Shown piece after piece: positions 25-30,816 of a DNA stretch of 31,278 nucleotides (positions within the stretch are counted from its first letter, which is position 1; each line of letters starts with the position of its first letter). A model generated the notes under the pieces. It was not told the origin of the DNA and did not search any database. It saw only the letters and a program-made list of their open reading frames with translations. Made by a program: the position numbers and the translations under genes. Source of the stretch: a virus; the IMG/VR virus record IMGVR_UViG_3300020731_000057, positions 1 through 31,278 of that record. One strand, given 5' to 3'.

Positions 25-396
25 TTACCATGCAGCGCATGCGCCGTTTTGGTCAGGTGTAGGCAGTCCATGCTGAATCTTGAGAGCGATGGCGACCTGC
101 TGTTCAGGTGTGGCCAGCCAAGCGTGAGGCGCGTAGGCGAGTCCTCCAAAGTGCTTCCAGTTCCAGGCAAGGATGCCTAGTCCTCCCTCGTAAATCGCGC
201 CTTCGTCCTTCCAGTTGCCGTCAGTCTCACAGTGAGCCACCCGACTCCACTCGACCATTTTGGAGGCTGGAACGAGCGTTGTGGTTGTTGTGGTGACGAT
301 TGTGGTTGTCGGCTGGGTTGGAATAGTGGCCGGTGCGGAGTGTCCGGTCACGAGCATTGCAGCAGTCAATACGAGGGAGGCTAGGGCTTTAGGCAT
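25..396 (-). CDS. Secreted Rpf-like transglycosylase (resuscitation-promoting-factor domain)
   Basis: A 123-aa protein. Residues 1-23 are a signal peptide (basic PK, a hydrophobic run, then a small-residue SAPA end). A Thr-rich linker follows to about residue 45, then a single Rpf-type domain. Visible family marks are HCETDGNW with the likely catalytic Glu57, GGLGILAWNWKHFGG, and a YAPHAWLATPEQQVAIA segment matching the Rpf pattern. Rpf domains cleave peptidoglycan glycan strands outside the cell, so this may aid entry, lysis or host resuscitation. I chose the ATG at 396 over the TTG at 405 because it gives a normal signal peptide; it overlaps the end of the upstream HTH gene by 8 bases. It lies far from the main lysis genes, at the end of the early operon. 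Confidence 0.85.
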   Translation of the reverse strand: MPKALASLVLTAAMLVTGHSAPATIPTQPTTTIVTTTTTTLVPASKMVEWSRVAHCETDGNWKDEGAIYEGGLGILAWNWKHFGGLAYAPHAWLATPEQQVAIALKIQHGLPTPDQNGACAAW

Positions 397-703
397 TTGA
401 TCCAATGTTTGTGGGTTTCACAGTCCAAACGGCGGCAGAGCGGCCGGAGGCTGTCTTACGAGTGCCGACCTGAACGACGAGTCCGGATGCCACGAGCTCA
501 ATGCGACGTGGTCGGGCCGTGTTGCCGGCAAGGTTGAGGCGGATGGCAATTTCCTCGTCCGTCAGTTCCTCGGTCTTGAGGAGTGCAAAGACTTGAGCCC
601 GGAGCGAACTGGTCTTGCCAGCGATGCTCTTGGCTGCTTCTCTGCTTGTGGCGCTGTGCGCTTGGAATGGCGGTGGCGCATCCCAAAGTGTCGGTGCTTC
701 CAT
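389..703 (-). CDS. Winged-helix DNA-binding protein
   Basis: A 104-aa protein. The centre (about residues 25-75) reads as a winged helix: a helix with TSSLRAQVFALLK, then ELTDEEIAIRLNLAGNTARPRRIELVASGLV as turn and recognition helices, then a basic wing with GTRKTASGRSAAVW. This type is common in phages as small DNA-binding regulators that act on mixed or terminal-type sites; the target is unknown. The start at 703 is fixed by a strong AGGAGG seven bases upstream, in a context (GACTTTAGGAGGTC) almost identical to that before the first genes of three other operons. It overlaps the Rpf-like gene downstream. Confidence 0.6.
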   Translation of the reverse strand: MEAPTLWDAPPPFQAHSATSREAAKSIAGKTSSLRAQVFALLKTEELTDEEIAIRLNLAGNTARPRRIELVASGLVVQVGTRKTASGRSAAVWTVKPTNIGSNA

Positions 704-737
704 GTTCTGACCTCCTAAAGTCATTACTCAAGTTTAG

Positions 738-3481: not shown

Positions 3482-3485
3482 CTAA
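3469..3485 (-). repeat. AT-rich inverted repeat over the whiB stop codon
   Basis: TTAGTTA-GCC-TAACTAA is a perfect 7-bp inverted repeat that includes the whiB stop codon. On RNA it would form an AU-rich hairpin with a 3-base loop and no clear U-run. It could be a weak terminator or a protein-binding site. Confidence 0.4.
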
Positions 3486-3901
3486 CTATTTGCTTTTCGC
3501 CAGTTCTTTTCGCGGTTGTAAAGCGTGTGCGCTTGGATGCAGGTGTAGCAACGTCGAGGGGTCAATTCGGGATGAGTTTTCCAGTAACGGATGAGGCTCA
3601 TGTAGCCAGCGTTAGTGCCACATTCCCCATGATCCGGGAGCAAGGTTCCTCCTCGGTACTCGGTGACACGGATTTTCCTTTTGCGCCGGACTGAGCGCCT
3701 CTCAGCCTCGCTGAGCCCTCCCCAGAATCCTTCGCGCTCGTGGAGCAGTGCGTACTCTCGGCAGTCCTTGATGACCGGGCAACGTCGGCAGATGGCCCTA
3801 GCTTTGTCGTCGGGCTCATCGTCCTCAAGATAGAAAATCTCAGTTGGCATGCCTTTGCATTCGGCAGCCTTCATCCAGTCAAATTGGTTTGCTTTACTCA
3901 C
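3482..3901 (-). CDS. whiB: WhiB-family iron-sulfur transcription regulator
   Basis: A 139-aa WhiB-like protein. The four cluster cysteines are Cys15, Cys38, Cys41 and Cys47 (the C-Xn-C-X2-C-X5-C pattern), and the signature FWGGLSEAERR follows at 59-69, then a basic segment RRKRKIR. WhiB proteins bind a 4Fe-4S cluster and the host principal sigma factor to alter promoter choice. A C-terminal extension (about 90-139) has CGTNAGY, then RRCYTCIQAH and a basic helix, a second small Cys-bearing module seen in some actinophage proteins. The start is a GTG without a strong Shine-Dalgarno sequence, set in an unusual RNA-hairpin leader (3908-3968). Confidence 0.93.
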   Translation of the reverse strand: MSKANQFDWMKAAECKGMPTEIFYLEDDEPDDKARAICRRCPVIKDCREYALLHEREGFWGGLSEAERRSVRRKRKIRVTEYRGGTLLPDHGECGTNAGYMSLIRYWKTHPELTPRRCYTCIQAHTLYNREKNWRKANS

Positions 3902-6498: not shown

Positions 6499-6550
6499 TG
6501 TCCGATTTTCGGACACTATCTACTGTAGCAGGTTGTCCGAGATTAGGACA
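6499..6550 (-). promoter_or_regulatory. Control region with two palindromic operators (copies 2a and 2b)
   Basis: Two 17-bp palindromes of the form TGTCC-N7-GGACA lie 35 bp apart: TGTCCTAATCTCGGACA (6550-6534) and TGTCCGAAAATCGGACA (6515-6499) on the minus strand. The second is symmetrical over seven bases per arm. Possible -10 hexamers between them are TACAGT (6527-6522) and TAGTGT (6518-6513), but the -35 is not clear. The promoter precedes the operon beginning at 6480. The spacing would place both dimers on almost the same face of the helix (about 3.3 turns). Confidence 0.7.
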
Positions 6551-22382: not shown

Positions 22383-24059
22383 TTAGAACTGCTCTAGTCG
22401 TGCTTCGATAGCGCGCGCGGCATCGAGGTACGAGTTGCGAAGTTCTGGGCTTGTGATTTGTGCAGCCTTCAGACGGTAGCCTTCGGCTTCGATCTTGAGG
22501 GCTTCAACTTGTGCAGACTTTTGGGTCTGAACGTGGTTGGCTCGGATTGCCGGGCCTCCCGGTGCTGCCATTTCGCGTACTTCGTCGAGAGCACTTTTGA
22601 GCGTTTCGATGCGCTCCTCTTGCTCTGCCAAAGCCGCCTTGTAGGTGGCAATTACTTCATCCACGCCGAGAGACTTGCGAATCTCGTCACGGAGTGAGTT
22701 CTTTGTTTCGTCAGTAGCGTCTGGTGCGCTTGCTGACTTGATCAGGTCGGCTGAAACGCCGAGACCAATGTAGGCCATTGTGTCATCATCCTTGTTCTCG
22801 TCCCATCCGGTGAAGGGAGCGTCGGTTTCGTTTTCGCTGGCTTCTGAAGTCCACCAGTCGAGGAAAATCTTTAGTGAGCAGAGTAACTCAGTTACGTCAC
22901 AAATCTCGTTCTCGTCTCCGGCGAGCATCTCGTCGAGCTCAGCCTTGATGAGAGCAATCAGACCAGCGCGGACTGCAGCGAGGTCGGCTGGGTCGTGCAT
23001 CATGTCGTCAGCCTTTGCAACGTCGGCGTCAACCGACTTCCAGTTCTCTGGAACCAAGTCCTCACGGCCAAGTGCAGCAGCACGAGCCTTGATGTGAGCC
23101 TTGACCTTTGGCTTGTCCGAAGCTCGTCCAAATGACTGGATAGCGTTCTTGAGGTCTTTGACGGTCTTGATTGGGTACGAGCCGTCTGGGAGTGCCTGAC
23201 CGGCCTCTGCAGCGTCTGCGCGCTCGGCGTCGGTGAACTCACGCTTCTCGACCTCAGGCTCAGCCTCGGCGGTTGCGTCGGGGTCAGATGCCTTGATCTC
23301 GTGGTTTACGTCGTTCTCTTTGTCGGTCGATGGGCTGGCCTGTTGGATGTTCTCGTGGATTCCCTCAGGAGCACGGCCAGAGCCGTCGCATTCCTCACAG
23401 CGAATCTGAGTCAATGCTTCAGCGTCGACGTTGGACTTGTGTCCAGAACCACCACAGGCAGGGCAGGGCTGGAAGGCGTCTGCACGAGGCTCGTTGATTT
23501 CTGGGTTTACTGGTACTTCACTGGCGAGAGCGTCGGCATTCATTTCCGGGCTGTCGGCCATCTTTTCGGTGTCGGCCATTGCCGCTCCCTTCACTAGTTC
23601 GCCGTCGATTGACTTTGCGATTTCAATTACTGCGCTCGGATTGGCCGGTCTATCGACTAAAGAAATTTCCACTACGGAACCCTGAATGATTCGTCCTCCC
23701 GGAGCTGCAGCATCTTTGACCACGCGAGCGTTTTTGATGCCGATGGAGAAACCTGTGTAGATTCCCTCCTCGACCATCTTGGCGGCAACTGGATCAACAA
23801 TCTTGGCTTCGACAACAAAGCCGTTTCCAACTTGTTCCATCTCCATTGCCTTGCCAACTGCCTTGCTCTGGTGCATCTCTCGGATGTTTCCGATTTCCAT
23901 CCACTTAGGCATTTCGCTCTTGAGCCAGTCTGGGTCACAGATTTGCTGGTCGAGGTCGAGGGTATCGTCAGTTGCGATTCCCTTCACTCGAAGGTATCCA
24001 TCGTCGCCACGCTTGGCGGTGAGGTTTCCCATGTAGGCGTACTTGATGTCTTGGGCCAT
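22383..24059 (-). CDS. Capsid maturation protease with scaffold-like C-terminus
   Basis: A 558-aa protein. Residues 1-150 are a prohead protease of the HK97/S78-like group with His63 (REMH), Ser105 (GFSIG) and the EISLVDRPANP motif at 131-141. Then come a linker, a DnaJ-like zinc module (CPACGGSG 199-206 and CEECDGSG 221-228), a helical domain with ALPDGSYPIKTVKDLKNAI (289-340), an acidic region, and a coiled coil (471-498, ATYKAALAEQEERIETLKSA). No separate scaffold gene is seen between portal and capsid, so this C-terminal part likely serves as scaffold. GGAGAAC precedes the ATG. Confidence 0.88.
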   Translation of the reverse strand: MAQDIKYAYMGNLTAKRGDDGYLRVKGIATDDTLDLDQQICDPDWLKSEMPKWMEIGNIREMHQSKAVGKAMEMEQVGNGFVVEAKIVDPVAAKMVEEGIYTGFSIGIKNARVVKDAAAPGGRIIQGSVVEISLVDRPANPSAVIEIAKSIDGELVKGAAMADTEKMADSPEMNADALASEVPVNPEINEPRADAFQPCPACGGSGHKSNVDAEALTQIRCEECDGSGRAPEGIHENIQQASPSTDKENDVNHEIKASDPDATAEAEPEVEKREFTDAERADAAEAGQALPDGSYPIKTVKDLKNAIQSFGRASDKPKVKAHIKARAAALGREDLVPENWKSVDADVAKADDMMHDPADLAAVRAGLIALIKAELDEMLAGDENEICDVTELLCSLKIFLDWWTSEASENETDAPFTGWDENKDDDTMAYIGLGVSADLIKSASAPDATDETKNSLRDEIRKSLGVDEVIATYKAALAEQEERIETLKSALDEVREMAAPGGPAIRANHVQTQKSAQVEALKIEAEGYRLKAAQITSPELRNSYLDAARAIEARLEQF

Positions 24060-26688: not shown

Positions 26689-28110
26689 CTAGTTGGGGTA
26701 AGGGAACGGCGAGAATGTGCCGTCAGTTCTGATTAGTTCTTTGGCGCATGAGGCGCAGGATTGAGCTCCGACCGAGTTAGGCATTCCGCAGTTCGGACAC
26801 TCCGGGGCAATGGTCGCTAGGTAGATGTCGGCAGTGCCGGTCAGGCCAAAGCCGAGTTCTGTGATTCCATGCACTAAAGCATCGAGACGGTCTGGTGACT
26901 TGCCGGAGTCTGGGAGCCACTCGCACATCTGGGATTCCAAGATGTCGAAGTAGCCAACGTGACTCACTCGGCCTTGCTCATAAAGAGACGCGACGGGCTC
27001 AGCGCGGAGCCTTTTTCCGACACGCGCGGTGATGCCTTTGAAGGGTAGTCCCGGCATGACTTGCTGGAGCGTCTGTTGGATGAAATCGCCACCCTGGTTC
27101 TTTTCCGCGACGACCTTATCGGCCTTGAATTCCTCGTAGGTAGCAACGACTCGCTGGGCCCAGCCGTAGGGAGTGTCTTTGCACGATCTATCTGCCAGCA
27201 CATAACAGCGTCCGTCGACGCCACGACCAACGACCGCTATTCCGGTCTCGTCGCTGTGCTCGCCAGAGGTGACTGCTGGGTCAACTGCGACCACCACGCG
27301 CGCCATTTCGGGCATCTCTTTGACTCGGTGCTCGTCAATCATTGTGGCAGTCCATAGAGCGCCTTCAACGTCGTCGACGATTTCGCCGTATAGTTCTTGC
27401 CGACCGATGCGAGTTCCCTCATAACGAGAGCGCAGTTCGGCGAGAGCCGCTTCCGATAGGTTGGCGGCGTTGTCAAACGTCGAGCCTCTTGTGACCACTA
27501 CGGAACCGTCTTTGCGGTTGAAAAACTCTTTGATGAGTTTGGTCGGACGAGGCGTCGTTGTTATGACGACTTGTGGTGAGCCAATGCGTAGAGCCGGTGC
27601 TAGACCTTCTGTCCACGTCTGCTCGTATTTCCAAGATGAGAGCTCGTCCATCCAGCAGAAACTGAGGTTCAATCCTCTGGCCCGGTCGGGCTCCTCTGCG
27701 GAGATCATGTGAAGTTTGCTGCCGTTGGTCAAAGTGATTTGACCGTTGGAGCGGTTGTAGAACTTGAGTTGTCCGGGCATCAAAGCCTTGAGGACGCCAC
27801 TAGGGCCCTCGACACAGGTTCGCCGAACGTCGGTAAATGTTGGAGCAACGATGGCGCATTCAATGCCAGGGTTCTGTAGAGCCTTCTCAACAATCCAAGA
27901 TGAGCCAACGAAGGTTTTTCCCCAGCCACGTCCACTAAGGATGAGCCAGATGAACCAGTTGCCTTCTGGAGGTAATTGCTGCGGTCGGGCATTCTGCCGA
28001 TAACGAGAGAACGCGAGTCTGGCTTTTGCCTCCTCAGCCTTCTTTTCCTCGTCAGCCTTTAGGAGTGCCTCAAGCCTCTTGAGGTTCGCTAGTTTCTGTT
28101 CGGCCAGCAT
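26689..28110 (-). CDS. terL: Terminase large subunit with C-terminal zinc ribbon
   Basis: A 473-aa protein. ATPase marks: SGRGWGKT (Walker A, 59-66), SFCWMDEL (Walker B, Asp155-Glu156), and the coupling TTTPRP near 184. Nuclease marks: VAVDPA (Asp277), VVAEKNQGG (Glu336) and DSGKSPDRLDALVHGITEL (Asp401, Asp407, Asp410). It powers DNA packaging and cuts the concatemer. Residues 438-455 add a zinc ribbon (CPNCGMPN, CASC), uncommon on large terminases. It overlaps the small terminase by 41 bases, with GGAG before the ATG. Confidence 0.95.
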   Translation of the reverse strand: MLAEQKLANLKRLEALLKADEEKKAEEAKARLAFSRYRQNARPQQLPPEGNWFIWLILSGRGWGKTFVGSSWIVEKALQNPGIECAIVAPTFTDVRRTCVEGPSGVLKALMPGQLKFYNRSNGQITLTNGSKLHMISAEEPDRARGLNLSFCWMDELSSWKYEQTWTEGLAPALRIGSPQVVITTTPRPTKLIKEFFNRKDGSVVVTRGSTFDNAANLSEAALAELRSRYEGTRIGRQELYGEIVDDVEGALWTATMIDEHRVKEMPEMARVVVAVDPAVTSGEHSDETGIAVVGRGVDGRCYVLADRSCKDTPYGWAQRVVATYEEFKADKVVAEKNQGGDFIQQTLQQVMPGLPFKGITARVGKRLRAEPVASLYEQGRVSHVGYFDILESQMCEWLPDSGKSPDRLDALVHGITELGFGLTGTADIYLATIAPECPNCGMPNSVGAQSCASCAKELIRTDGTFSPFPYPN

Positions 28111-28528
28111 CGCTCTCCCCTAACTGTTGCTCTAGGCGCTGAATCTCTGCGGAGACTGCGTCGAGCGTGAGAACTTCGTGTTTGGTCGGTGCATCCAAGC
28201 CCATCAGTTTGGCTCGTCTGTCCATGATGGAGATGACCCGGTCAACTGCAAACAGTGCGCCTTTGTCGCCACTCATGGCTTTGTCCATTGCGACATTGAG
28301 CACTAGATCAAGACGTTCCATCTCAAGCCGGCGAAACTCATCGACGGCCTCGGCTGGGATTGCAGCGAGGGCTCTTTGGACACGGTTGTAGGCGGTGGCC
28401 TTAGTCGTTCCAATCGCGTCTGCGACCTTCTGATAAGACCAACCGAGTGAACGGAGCTTGAGCGCCTCGGTGTCGAGTAACGCTTGCTCCTCTGTGCGGA
28501 TGTAGCCGCCGGGTGAGTTTTGGGTCAT
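28070..28528 (-). CDS. terS: Terminase small subunit
   Basis: A 152-aa protein. An N-terminal HTH (EALKLRSLGWSYQKVADAIG, TTKATAYNRVQRALAAI) is followed by long helices (VDEFRRLEMERLDLVLNVAMDKA, LFAVDRVISIMDRRAKLMGL) and a charged end, in line with small terminases that bind the packaging site as a ring. It precedes the large subunit. There is no Shine-Dalgarno before the ATG at 28528. A TACTAT -10 (28577-28572) lies about 45 bases upstream. The DNA repeats at 28590-28717 are candidates for its binding site. Confidence 0.82.
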   Translation of the reverse strand: MTQNSPGGYIRTEEQALLDTEALKLRSLGWSYQKVADAIGTTKATAYNRVQRALAAIPAEAVDEFRRLEMERLDLVLNVAMDKAMSGDKGALFAVDRVISIMDRRAKLMGLDAPTKHEVLTLDAVSAEIQRLEQQLGESDAGRTETSEPQEA

Positions 28529-28851
28529 CGTTTAGGTGTCTAAGCGTCTATTGAATGGACACTAAATGCCTATAGTAATACTTCTACGATACCACAGGTT
28601 ACACCGTTGTAATTACACGAATGTGATGTGGTAACAAATTCCGAGGTCGCACGTTCGGTCACGTTTGGTCTGCACTTTTGGACTACACATTGGGGAGTTT
28701 TTAGACTACACATTGGGAACGTTTTGCTAACAGGTTTGGTTATCTGTATGCGGTTGCGCCGTAATGCAAGGTAAATGGCTTTTTCCTGCTATGAGATACC
28801 AGAGCAAAATCTAAAGGACGAAACACGACAAATGACCACTAGCCTGTTGAG
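28529..28851. other. Divergent intergenic region between terminase and plus-strand nuclease
   Basis: 323 bases without a gene. Leftward: -10 TACTAT at 28577-28572, identical to the hexamer at the copy-3 operator promoter, without a clear -35. Symmetry: TACCACA (28590-28596) and TGTGGTA (28627-28633) flank the 10-bp palindrome TGTAATTACA (28608-28617). Repeats: two tandem ACGTTYGGTC (28651-28670) and two GACTACACATTGGG (28681, 28704). Rightward: AAAGGA (28813-28818) before a seven-codon frame MTTSLLR (28832-28855) whose stop overlaps the nuclease start. It is a candidate packaging site (cos or pac) and control region. Confidence 0.6.
28651..28717. repeat. Direct repeats near the terminase gene
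   Basis: ACGTTCGGTC and ACGTTTGGTC are in tandem (28651-28670). GACTACACATTGGG occurs at 28681-28694 and at 28704-28717, 23 bp apart (about two helical turns). Such iteration next to a small terminase gene suggests its binding site or an operator. Confidence 0.65.
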
Positions 28852-29394
28852 ATGAAAATCATCCAACTATCCTCAGATCAAGTCAATCGAGCAACGAGGC
28901 TGGCTGAGGAAACGTTGGCTCTTTTTGCCGAAAAGCAAGGTCACTACACCAACGACCTCAACTCCCACCTGCGAGGCAAACTAGGTGAGATAGCCGCCTC
29001 CCAAGTGCTCCAGGAGCAAGGCTACGAGGTCAAAGACCTATGGGCTGATGTCAAAGCTCTTAGTCAGGCAGACATTGTTTCTCGCGCTTTCAAGGCAGAT
29101 GTCAAGACTTGGAACCGTAGGTTTTGGCCGGAGTTTGGTCGGTGCGTGGCTGTCGGTCAGTTGCCTCTACTAGCCAAGAAGGCTGATTTAGTCATCTGGT
29201 GTTATTGCGCCGAGGTTGTGGAGCCCAGCATGAAGGTCAAGGTTGTGGGGTGGAACTCCATCGAGGACATCGAGAACGCTCCTAAGAGGCTCACAGGGCC
29301 CACAGGAGGGCGTCTAGTGCAGAACTTCCAGCTCGACGATGAGTCGATTCGGAGTCTGGACTCTTTACCGCGATCTACAGGCCAACTATTCTGA
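28852..29394 (+). CDS. PD-(D/E)XK-like nuclease, only plus-strand gene
   Basis: A 180-aa protein with a restriction-endonuclease-like pattern: helix RGKLGEIAASQVL (Glu46), then Asp74 in QADIV, then strand FKADVKTW with the D-x-K of Asp83 and Lys85, and later strands KADLVIWCYCAEV and KVKVVGW. The order E, D, D-x-K is that of the superfamily. The target is unknown; it may assist packaging cuts, attack host DNA or process recombination intermediates. It has no Shine-Dalgarno at its ATG; a seven-codon frame upstream ends in an ATGA overlap. Its 3' end overlaps the convergent Ntn hydrolase gene by 20 bases. Confidence 0.7.
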   Translation: MKIIQLSSDQVNRATRLAEETLALFAEKQGHYTNDLNSHLRGKLGEIAASQVLQEQGYEVKDLWADVKALSQADIVSRAFKADVKTWNRRFWPEFGRCVAVGQLPLLAKKADLVIWCYCAEVVEPSMKVKVVGWNSIEDIENAPKRLTGPTGGRLVQNFQLDDESIRSLDSLPRSTGQLF

Positions 29395-29851
29395 ACGGCC
29401 CACGAACGGTTGCACTGAACTCAGCACTAGCCTCTAGGGCTCGCATGAGGCTTCCCTCGTCCTCGTGGCTGACGTAGAGCGCGCCTAAGGCTGGCTGAGC
29501 ACCTGAGCCAATAGCGCCAAACGAAATTCCTTTTTCGCTCGGCATTTCTAGGATTGCCAAATCCTCGTCTACCTCGTAGATTTTGCCGGCCTCAACAAAC
29601 AAGAAGTTCCACTCTTTGACATCGGTCTGGAAGTTGTCCAGGAGCTGCTTCATGGTTGGCAGGTGGGCTTTGCTGGCCATGTCGAACATGGTCTGTCCGG
29701 CCTTCCAGTTGCCTGAGAAGCCAATCAAAAGGTTGCCAAACTTGCCTACTTTTGGCGAAGCCGTAATTGCTCCAATGTCGGCATCAGCAGCCAATGAGTC
29801 TGCTCCCATCCAAGAGCCGTCGCGAGTCACGATTGCAGCGACAACGGTCAT
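29375..29851 (-). CDS. Proteasome-beta/HslV-like Ntn hydrolase
   Basis: A 158-aa protein. After Met removal the first residue is Thr, and the family catalytic residues fall at the exact expected places: Thr1, Asp17 (GADS) and Lys33 (SPKVGK). Other family marks are LLIGFSGN in place of the GFAG turn, GKIYEV, and FGAIGSGAQPALGAL for the GSG-helix motif, then ALEASAEFSATVRGPFRIV for the C-terminal part. Length is near HslV (about 175). It should be a threonine peptidase or amidase that forms rings. Its partner unfoldase is unknown. It follows GroES and a small zinc protein in one operon (ATGA overlap at 29848-29851). Confidence 0.8.
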   Translation of the reverse strand: MTVVAAIVTRDGSWMGADSLAADADIGAITASPKVGKFGNLLIGFSGNWKAGQTMFDMASKAHLPTMKQLLDNFQTDVKEWNFLFVEAGKIYEVDEDLAILEMPSEKGISFGAIGSGAQPALGALYVSHEDEGSLMRALEASAEFSATVRGPFRIVGL

Positions 29852-30021
29852 GGCTCAGCTCTCAATTCGGAGCCGTAGTCAATGGGGTCACAGAAGCGCG
29901 AGTTGTTGCTCTTGTGGCTCCAGTGGACTGTGCTTGGCGTGGGCTTGCCGTTGCGGACGTAGATCGTGCGCTCAATGACTTGCTTGCAATGCCTACACTT
30001 CGAGGATTGCGAGGATGCCAT
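29848..30021 (-). CDS. Small zinc-finger protein, 57 aa
   Basis: Found by direct translation. A 57-aa protein with CRHC (residues 9-12), then VHWSHKSNNSRFC with His and Cys44, so a likely CCHC or CCHH zinc site. Basic N-terminal half. Start overlaps the end of GroES by 29 bases and the stop overlaps the Ntn-hydrolase start (ATGA), so it is coupled to both. Function unknown. Confidence 0.65.
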   Translation of the reverse strand: MASSQSSKCRHCKQVIERTIYVRNGKPTPSTVHWSHKSNNSRFCDPIDYGSELRAEP

Positions 30022-30286
30022 AGGAACTAATCAACTTGAAGTCGTCGCCAGCCAAAGGGAATGACATGGCTTGGCGTGGGTCAAAAATGACTCGTTGTCC
30101 TGGCTCAACCTCAATGGGGATGAGTGTGCCGTCGAAGGTGTGACGACCTTCCCCGACTGAGACCACAGTGGCCTCTTGGTCGTTCTCGTTGGTCAGGTTC
30201 AAGATGAGACCGGACTCAGTAGTTTCCTTTGGTGGGTCTAGTTGCAGAATCACCTTGTCGCCGAATGCCTGTAGTTTCATGGTCAC
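29993..30286 (-). CDS. groES: GroES-like co-chaperonin
   Basis: A 97-aa Cpn10. The opening MKLQAFGDKVILQLDPPKETTESGLIL (split) gives the first strand and a mobile loop at about 18-33 with the hydrophobic SGLIL tip, then ATVVSVGEGR, GTLIPIEVEPGQRVIFDP and FKLISSYGILAILEV, all in family order. It caps the host GroEL, probably to fit phage proteins such as the large capsid subunit, as gp31 does in T4. The first codon is GTG (30286) with AGAGGA seven bases upstream; the ATG at 30280 is too far from that site. The gene belongs to the operon under the copy-3 operator. Confidence 0.93.
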   Translation of the reverse strand: MTMKLQAFGDKVILQLDPPKETTESGLILNLTNENDQEATVVSVGEGRHTFDGTLIPIEVEPGQRVIFDPRQAMSFPLAGDDFKLISSYGILAILEV

Positions 30287-30289
30287 AGT

Positions 30290-30424
30290 CTAGTCCTCTC
30301 GTGCGCGGAGGATTTCCTCCCAGCGAATGGCGTCCAATTTGGCTCGCGTCTGAAGTCGGCGTCGGGTGCGCTTGACGATTTTGCGCCGGATGCGACGAGC
30401 TCGACGTTCGCTAGTCCACTTCAT
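30290..30424 (-). CDS. Small Arg-rich protein, 44 aa
   Basis: Found by direct translation. A highly basic helix (RRARRIRRKIVKRTRRRLQTR), followed by an acidic end (WEEILRARED). TAATG junction with the upstream gene. GGGAG is near the start. It may bind nucleic acid by charge, or fold on a partner; unknown. Confidence 0.55.
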   Translation of the reverse strand: MKWTSERRARRIRRKIVKRTRRRLQTRAKLDAIRWEEILRARED

Positions 30425-30753
30425 TAGTTCTCCCATCCAAAGCAACGTGCGTAGTAGGCGCACTCTTCATTGTCCATCATGCCTTTGCCACGAACTTCGC
30501 CACGAATGACTGAGACGTTTTTCCAAGCAACAATTTGGGTGTCGAACTGGGTTGAGATTCGAGCCTCACCGACAAGAACATCTCCAACGTGCAAATCGAG
30601 CAACGCCAACTTCTTTGACATCTTTACGTCAAATCGTTTGCCGTCAATGTGAACCTGGGCGCATGGAGTCCATCCCCAGCCACCGTCAAGGGTAACATCC
30701 CAACCGTGAATTTCTAGTTCAAACTTTTCCAAAACGAGTGATGCACTTTTCAT
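30424..30753 (-). CDS. Hypothetical protein, first gene of the chaperonin operon
   Basis: A 109-aa protein, not recognised. Beta-rich (LEIHGWDVTLDGGWGW, CAQVHIDGKRFDVKM, ARISTQFDTQIVAWKNVSVI), with a short Cys-bearing end (NEECAYYARCFGWEN). OB-fold-like alternation is possible. Its start is GACTTAGGAGGTCGAAATG, the same as in two other operator-controlled operons. It is translated before the small basic gene and GroES. Confidence 0.65.
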   Translation of the reverse strand: MKSASLVLEKFELEIHGWDVTLDGGWGWTPCAQVHIDGKRFDVKMSKKLALLDLHVGDVLVGEARISTQFDTQIVAWKNVSVIRGEVRGKGMMDNEECAYYARCFGWEN

Positions 30754-30787: not shown

Positions 30788-30816
30788 ATAGTATGTCCAA
30801 ACATTGGACAATGCAA
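30788..30816 (-). promoter_or_regulatory. Promoter with palindromic operator (copy 3)
   Basis: On the minus strand: -35 TTGCAT (30816-30811), then the palindrome TGTCCAATGTTTGGACA (30810-30794), then -10 TACTAT (30793-30788). Spacing is 17 bases, exactly the palindrome. This is the clearest of the three control regions. It drives the operon 30753-29375. Confidence 0.8.

Follow-up and report, generated by a model that had tools for sequence, protein, structure and literature searches.

A Proteasome-like Threonine Peptidase Adjacent to the Terminase Genes in a Clade of Freshwater Actinophages, with GroES as a Lineage-Specific Neighbor

Introduction

Proteasome-like peptidases and co-chaperonins are both already known from phages. 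In their survey of proteasome homologs, Fuchs, Alva and Lupas (2021; PMC8665760) reported the AAH family and, from phages, the PPH family, whose members have about 140 amino acids and no H2; they found neither genomic contexts that would suggest a function for the proteasome homologs nor co-occurring AAA+ partners, and no actinobacteria-specific phages that encode AAH. Their discussion assigns PPH to proteobacteria and their table also marks actinobacterial sequences; actinobacteria are not marked as carriers of HslV in Table 1 of the same work. Within this superfamily, BPH is thought to work without an unfoldase, and connectase provides a precedent for a nonproteolytic enzyme (PMC8665760). 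GroES is common in phages and is, for example, a core gene in the HTVC023P-type pelagiphages (PMC9599517). Here, we describe a stable genomic context and a clade of actinophages for a family that had been reported without informative context.

The starting point is a virus record of 31,278 bases with a GC content of 54%, which we call the window. Like PPH, its peptidase is phage-encoded, belongs to the compact group I without S12/H5, has no propeptide and carries Thr1/Asp17/Lys33. Unlike PPH, it has 158 residues and a short H2 (residues 67–73) is predicted, so that we place it near PPH and claim no strict membership; it may belong to PPH or form a group I subfamily of its own. It also departs from PPH as published in its actinophage hosts and its fixed position next to the terminase. 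The best structural match is the BPH of Thiobacillus and Cupriavidus (5ovs/5ovu), another group I protein, with a TM score of 0.77 on the query; however, identity to it is only about 19%, and BPH is a bacterial protein of about 185 amino acids whose pore loop is long, whereas the window peptidase has a short one. With HslV (ClpQ) it shares the fold (1m4y, E = 4e-9) and the spacing of Thr1/Asp17/Lys33, but no HslU is co-encoded, the H1/H2 region is shorter and the structural alignment gives 17–19% identity. The GroES of the window resembles T4 gp31 and other phage GroES proteins in being a phage-encoded co-chaperonin that is expected to cap the host GroEL. In contrast to the divergent gp31, it belongs to the canonical Cpn10 sequence family and has a lineage-specific place inside the peptidase operon.

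Results

Organization of the Locus

Five head-to-tail open reading frames on the minus strand, between 30753 and 29375, encode proteins of 109, 44, 95, 57, and 158 amino acids. These and the neighboring features are as follows:

30788–30816, minus strand: promoter with putative operator (TTGCAT, TGTCCAATGTTTGGACA, TACTAT)
30424–30753, minus strand: 109-aa protein, first gene of the operon; open reading frame with an AGGAGG ribosome-binding site
30290–30424, minus strand: 44-aa basic protein; kept in the related loci L006 and L002, dN/dS 0.13
29993–30280, minus strand: GroES (Cpn10), 95 aa; PF00166, E = 9.1e-17; PHROG GroES, 8e-14
29848–30021, minus strand: 57-aa protein with CxxC...HxxH...C, zinc type by inspection; kept in L006 and L002
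29375–29851, minus strand: 158-aa group I proteasome-like (PPH/HslV-type) threonine peptidase, predicted from PHROG HslV, AF2 and Foldseek
28852–29394, plus strand: 180-aa open reading frame, cargo between peptidase and TerS; PHROG_16175 (labeled as of unknown function), 3e-12
28070–28528, minus strand: TerS-like gene, named from its position and conservation between peptidase and TerL; no family match
26689–28110, minus strand: terminase large subunit (TerL); NCBIfam terminase models, best 4e-7; tblastn matches annotated terminase

A preliminary description, made from the letters of the window, had claimed that a co-chaperonin and an HslV/proteasome-beta-like Ntn hydrolase lie in one coupled operon with a basic 44-residue protein and a small zinc protein. 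This arrangement was borne out: both small proteins are present, and the five genes form a translationally coupled operon in which the stop and start codons of the 109-aa and 44-aa genes overlap in TAATG, the 3′ end of the GroES gene and the zinc-type frame overlap by 29 nt, and the junction between that frame and the hydrolase is a shared ATGA. The 57-aa protein has no significant family match in Pfam or PHROG, and the 109-aa protein, which is kept in L006 and as a fragment in L008, has no confident match in Pfam, PHROG or NCBIfam; a hit of the latter to “Proteasomal ATPase OB” reached only E = 0.12 and was taken as chance. A PADLOC scan of four proteins gave no defense family. The genes at the left end of the window (25–724, minus strand) are similar to ones situated upstream of the peptidase in L022 and other relatives, which suggests a nearly complete record of a circularly permuted genome that is somewhat larger than 32 kb.

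The Peptidase

Among the PHROG families, the hydrolase hits the “peptidase HslV family” (PHROG_1040) with E = 4e-14, and in tblastn searches against named phages it is 22–30% identical to sequences in ten phage records. A Pfam search with the window protein itself returned no match; two of its relatives match PF00227 Proteasome, the better with 3.4e-5. Since the PDB sequence searches gave chance matches only (single protein) or weak proteasome matches only (profile of 11 sequences), a comparison of folds was needed. An initial AF2 model based on 11 close sequences was of middling quality, with a pLDDT of 76; with distant relatives added to give 27 sequences, the monomer model rose to a pLDDT of 94.3 and a pTM of 0.89. 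Foldseek placed BPH (5ovs, E = 5e-10) and then HslV (1m4y) at the head of 1129 PDB matches at E ≤ 0.001, proteasome beta subunits being among them; structure prediction, which the preliminary description had named as a check, thus returned the proteasome/HslV fold. In the model, a helix (132–145) is followed by a final strand (154–157), so that the C-terminal S12/H5 are absent, and the H2 of seven residues is short rather than absent.

Counted from the Thr after Met1, the residues Thr1/Asp17/Lys33 have the HslV/proteasome spacing. Numbered with Met1, T2, D18, K34, and G47, the last at the position of the oxyanion glycine, are invariant in the 27 sequences, down to 29% identity; no more than 11 positions are invariant in this alignment, the three catalytic ones included. 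Members with a complete start begin with [M/V]-T, so that a propeptide is absent. The dN/dS values of the hydrolase (0.05 between the window and L002, 0.08 between the window and L007) and of GroES (0.06 against L002) reveal purifying selection, which indicates that both are working genes. Judged from sequence and predicted structure, the hydrolase is a phage-encoded group I proteasome-like threonine peptidase, closest in kind to PPH.

A Conserved Palindrome in Promoter Spacers

Upstream of the gene for the 109-aa protein, at 30794–30810, lies the perfect (7 + 3 + 7) palindrome TGTCCAA-N3-TTGGACA, and TGTCCAATGTTTGGACA occupies exactly the 17-bp spacer from TTGCAT to TACTAT. The single operator that the preliminary description had postulated is in keeping with this, since the palindrome recurs in promoter spacers of the clade. 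Its core, TGTCC-N7-GGACA, is present 25 times in 1.38 Mb of clade loci against 1.3 expected under uniform composition; some of these loci overlap, and the 19 distinct sites are therefore the safer count. A promoter spacer, defined by TTG 5–8 nt upstream and TANNNT 0–3 nt downstream of the palindrome, encloses 16 of the 19, as compared with 0.36% of random positions. In relatives, small genes and a gene for a YqaJ-type exonuclease (identified by eye) follow the site in a co-directional operon whose last gene is the hydrolase. This clade-wide 17-bp palindrome is probably an operator for a phage (or host) repressor, which would bind between the −35 and −10 boxes; the promoter of the operon is sigma70-like, and expression is therefore probably early or middle. 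Within the window the palindrome is found at 1614–1630, 6499–6515, 6534–6550, and 30794–30810, and it also occurs in L006, L016, L018, L021, L022, L024, L040, L043, L046, L053, L072, L123, and L126.

Linkage of the Peptidase to the Terminase Genes

Profile scans of IMG/VR yielded 80 loci encoding the hydrolase, which is 26–100% identical in them to that of the window. In 65 of these loci the hydrolase gene is followed on the same strand by TerL, although many of the loci are closely related to each other and the counts overstate their independence. The exceptions are mostly contig ends (L026, L031, L063, L074, L077) or members of a distant group with 26–32% identity; L079 (42%) is a true exception to the linkage. 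In a reverse test that set out from TerL, the hydrolase was found in 27 of the 30 loci with a TerL at least 60% identical and at least 3 kb of upstream sequence, and in no locus with a TerL identity of 53% or below. This test is not fully independent of the former, because its seeds were hydrolase-bearing and several contigs were common to both sets; 11 newly reached contigs carried the hydrolase. In two exceptional loci (L123, L154) what appears by eye to be a DNA methylase takes the hydrolase's place. The conserved unit is thus peptidase–TerS–TerL, and the peptidase is a near-core gene in this clade of freshwater actinophages. In named phages with an HslV-family gene, the peptidase sits among genes of nucleotide metabolism and other nonstructural genes and, in the stretches read, not near the terminase.

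GroES in the Clade

The co-chaperonin claimed in the preliminary description is confirmed: GroES scores 61.3 bits against the Pfam Cpn10 cut-off of 21.1, and by its sequence it is beyond doubt a genuine Cpn10. Its residues G24-L25-I26-L27 contain the hydrophobic mobile-loop tripeptide L-I-L, aligned with GIVL and GLII of other phage Cpn10 proteins. This mobile-loop tripeptide is known as the one that binds GroEL, and a link to the host GroEL is reasonable.

The same description had gone on to propose that GroES and the peptidase form a dedicated fold-or-degrade pair, and this part of it is not supported. We searched for Cpn10 in 87 hydrolase-bearing IMG/VR records (28 + 49 + 10, three partial ones being left out) and found it in 6, although these records are mostly fragments and a GroES gene could be situated beyond the ends of many; none of the five hydrolase records of at least 30 kb has it. 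The two genes share an operon only in the near relatives L006/G001 (99.4% identical DNA) and L002/G002 (about 90–94%). GroES is about 3 kb from the peptidase on the opposite strand in L009 and L011, and about 10–12 kb upstream of it in G015 and G019. The survey of gene order in relatives, on whose outcome the description had itself let the proposal depend, hence found neither co-occurrence nor adjacency to be conserved. Among six named phages with an HslV-family gene, Cpn10 was present in one, the Psychrobacter phage D'Alembert, at a distance of about 5 kb from the peptidase and on the other strand. GroES is accordingly a lineage-specific neighbor of the peptidase and not a conserved partner, and their specific pairing is probably incidental. 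A literature search found no report of a GroES/HslV pair in an actinophage.

The other GroES genes of the clade are 24–29% identical to that of the window, and there are three unrelated lineages at different positions within this one phage clade (L009/L011, L090/L091, and window 29993–30280). It thus seems that GroES entered the clade on at least three occasions and in different places, the operon pairing being one such event, which suggests repeated selection for a phage co-chaperonin.

Hosts, Unfoldases, and Other Proteases

Of 31 clade records, 21 carry WhiB genes, the window among them (WhiB-like regulator at 3482–3901, minus strand), and many relatives have from one to three of these genes. 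WhiB has been used as an actinophage marker (PMC6802176), and on this basis we place the clade in the actinobacteria. Among named phages, the TerL matches are mostly to phages of Gordonia, Microbacterium and Arthrobacter; the top match, however, belongs to a phage of Microcystis. Genome scans gave no bacterial relatives for the peptidase alignment and, for TerL, nothing beyond Sphingomonas, Brevundimonas and similar genomes (32–49%), and so did not single out a host genus.

AAA_2 (PF07724, the ClpX/HslU type) is absent from the window and 17 related records, and within these 18 a classical AAA was found only in a distant record of 76 kb. The window has a separate head maturation protease at 22383–24059 (PHROG_80, 2e-16); the peptidase is therefore not needed for head maturation, and the idea that it is itself the maturation protease was rejected.

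Discussion

The best explanation for this locus, to which we assign a probability of about 0.6, is that the peptidase is a BPH-like ring enzyme that has no dedicated unfoldase or is opportunistically fed by a host ATPase, and that GroES is a separate matter. As regards ring assembly, peptidase activity, substrates and timing, we infer the following. The peptidase, the last gene of an operator-controlled, sigma70-like operon directly ahead of TerS–TerL, would be produced prior to the transition to packaging or at about that time. Host methionine aminopeptidase would cut off Met1 and so expose the Thr1 nucleophile, with Lys33 and Asp17 at its side. The protein most likely forms a small self-compartmentalizing ring, which would degrade unfolded or small proteins of the host or the phage and need no dedicated unfoldase for this, as is assumed for BPH; alternatively, a host ATPase may feed the ring opportunistically. 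GroES would be a separate lineage-specific acquisition that acts with the host GroEL on phage proteins in the manner of T4 gp31, and its shared transcription with the peptidase would mean a shared timing and not a joint machine.

The opposite view, that GroES and the peptidase form a dedicated module which folds or degrades proteins together with the host GroEL and a host AAA unfoldase, could invoke the cotranscription and translational coupling of the two genes in the virus of the window and those closest to it, the purifying selection on both, and their joint presence in D'Alembert, there some 5 kb apart on opposite strands. However, the scarcity of Cpn10 in the peptidase records (6/87, and 0/5 of those of at least 30 kb), the three unrelated GroES lineages at different positions, and the lack of an encoded unfoldase in the clade make such a module improbable. 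The terminase linkage could instead point to a role in packaging or in the head, where the peptidase might trim or clear a head, portal, scaffold or terminase protein; such an accessory would explain its near-invariant place ahead of the terminase genes. Yet a dedicated head maturation protease is present, other phages with HslV-family genes keep them away from the terminase in the stretches read, and the promoter is operator-controlled and, in relatives, shared with genes of the YqaJ-exonuclease type, so that we regard this role as rather unlikely.

Two further readings concern what the enzyme might do to, or with, the host. Its rings could dock to the host Mpa/ARC, ClpX or ClpC and redirect degradation toward host or defense proteins early in infection. 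The clade encodes no unfoldase, the promoter is of an early type, and the hosts belong to a phylum that is not marked for HslV in Table 1 of PMC8665760, all of which would suit such a hijack; but the docking surfaces of HslV and the proteasome differ, and no AAA+ partner was found to co-occur in that survey, and we consider the proposal possible though doubtful. The protein could also be an enzyme of the Ntn type that is not proteolytic and instead, in the manner of connectase, serves for instance as a specific protein ligase or a processing enzyme. Small size and the connectase precedent (PMC8665760) speak for this, but the compact window protein leaves no room for the two-helix connectase insertion and in its fold comes closest to two ring proteases, BPH and HslV, which makes the idea very improbable.

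For the family to which it is related, a group I homolog that is near-core in an actinophage clade, almost always adjacent to the terminase and under a definable operator-promoter offers a tractable setting for questions about the timing of its expression, any dependence on a host ATPase, and the substrates that it cuts. Many actinobacteria possess true 20S proteasomes, and competition with, or use of, the host's proteasomal ATPases thereby becomes testable. A more ambitious version, which we put forward only tentatively and consider unlikely, is that this near-core, operator-controlled and self-compartmentalizing threonine peptidase remodels the actinobacterial host proteome early in infection, either with a host unfoldase (Mpa, ClpX or ClpC) or alone; if true, it would be a proteasome core of viral origin that occupies a definite position in the program of the phage.

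The interval between peptidase and TerS (28531–29375 in the window) is a cargo hot spot, as is the same interval in L002, L007, L022, L123, and L154. Its variants include the 180-aa opposite-strand frame of the window, which is absent from L002, an unrelated 195-aa frame in L002 and DNA methylases elsewhere, in phages that are otherwise alike. Finally, BFVD holds two uncharacterized proteins from Gordonia phages that match the proteasome fold, strongly in phage Daredevil (A0A345MIR8) and weakly in phage Nymphadora (A0A142KAQ6), from which it follows that actinophage homologs sit unannotated in the databases.
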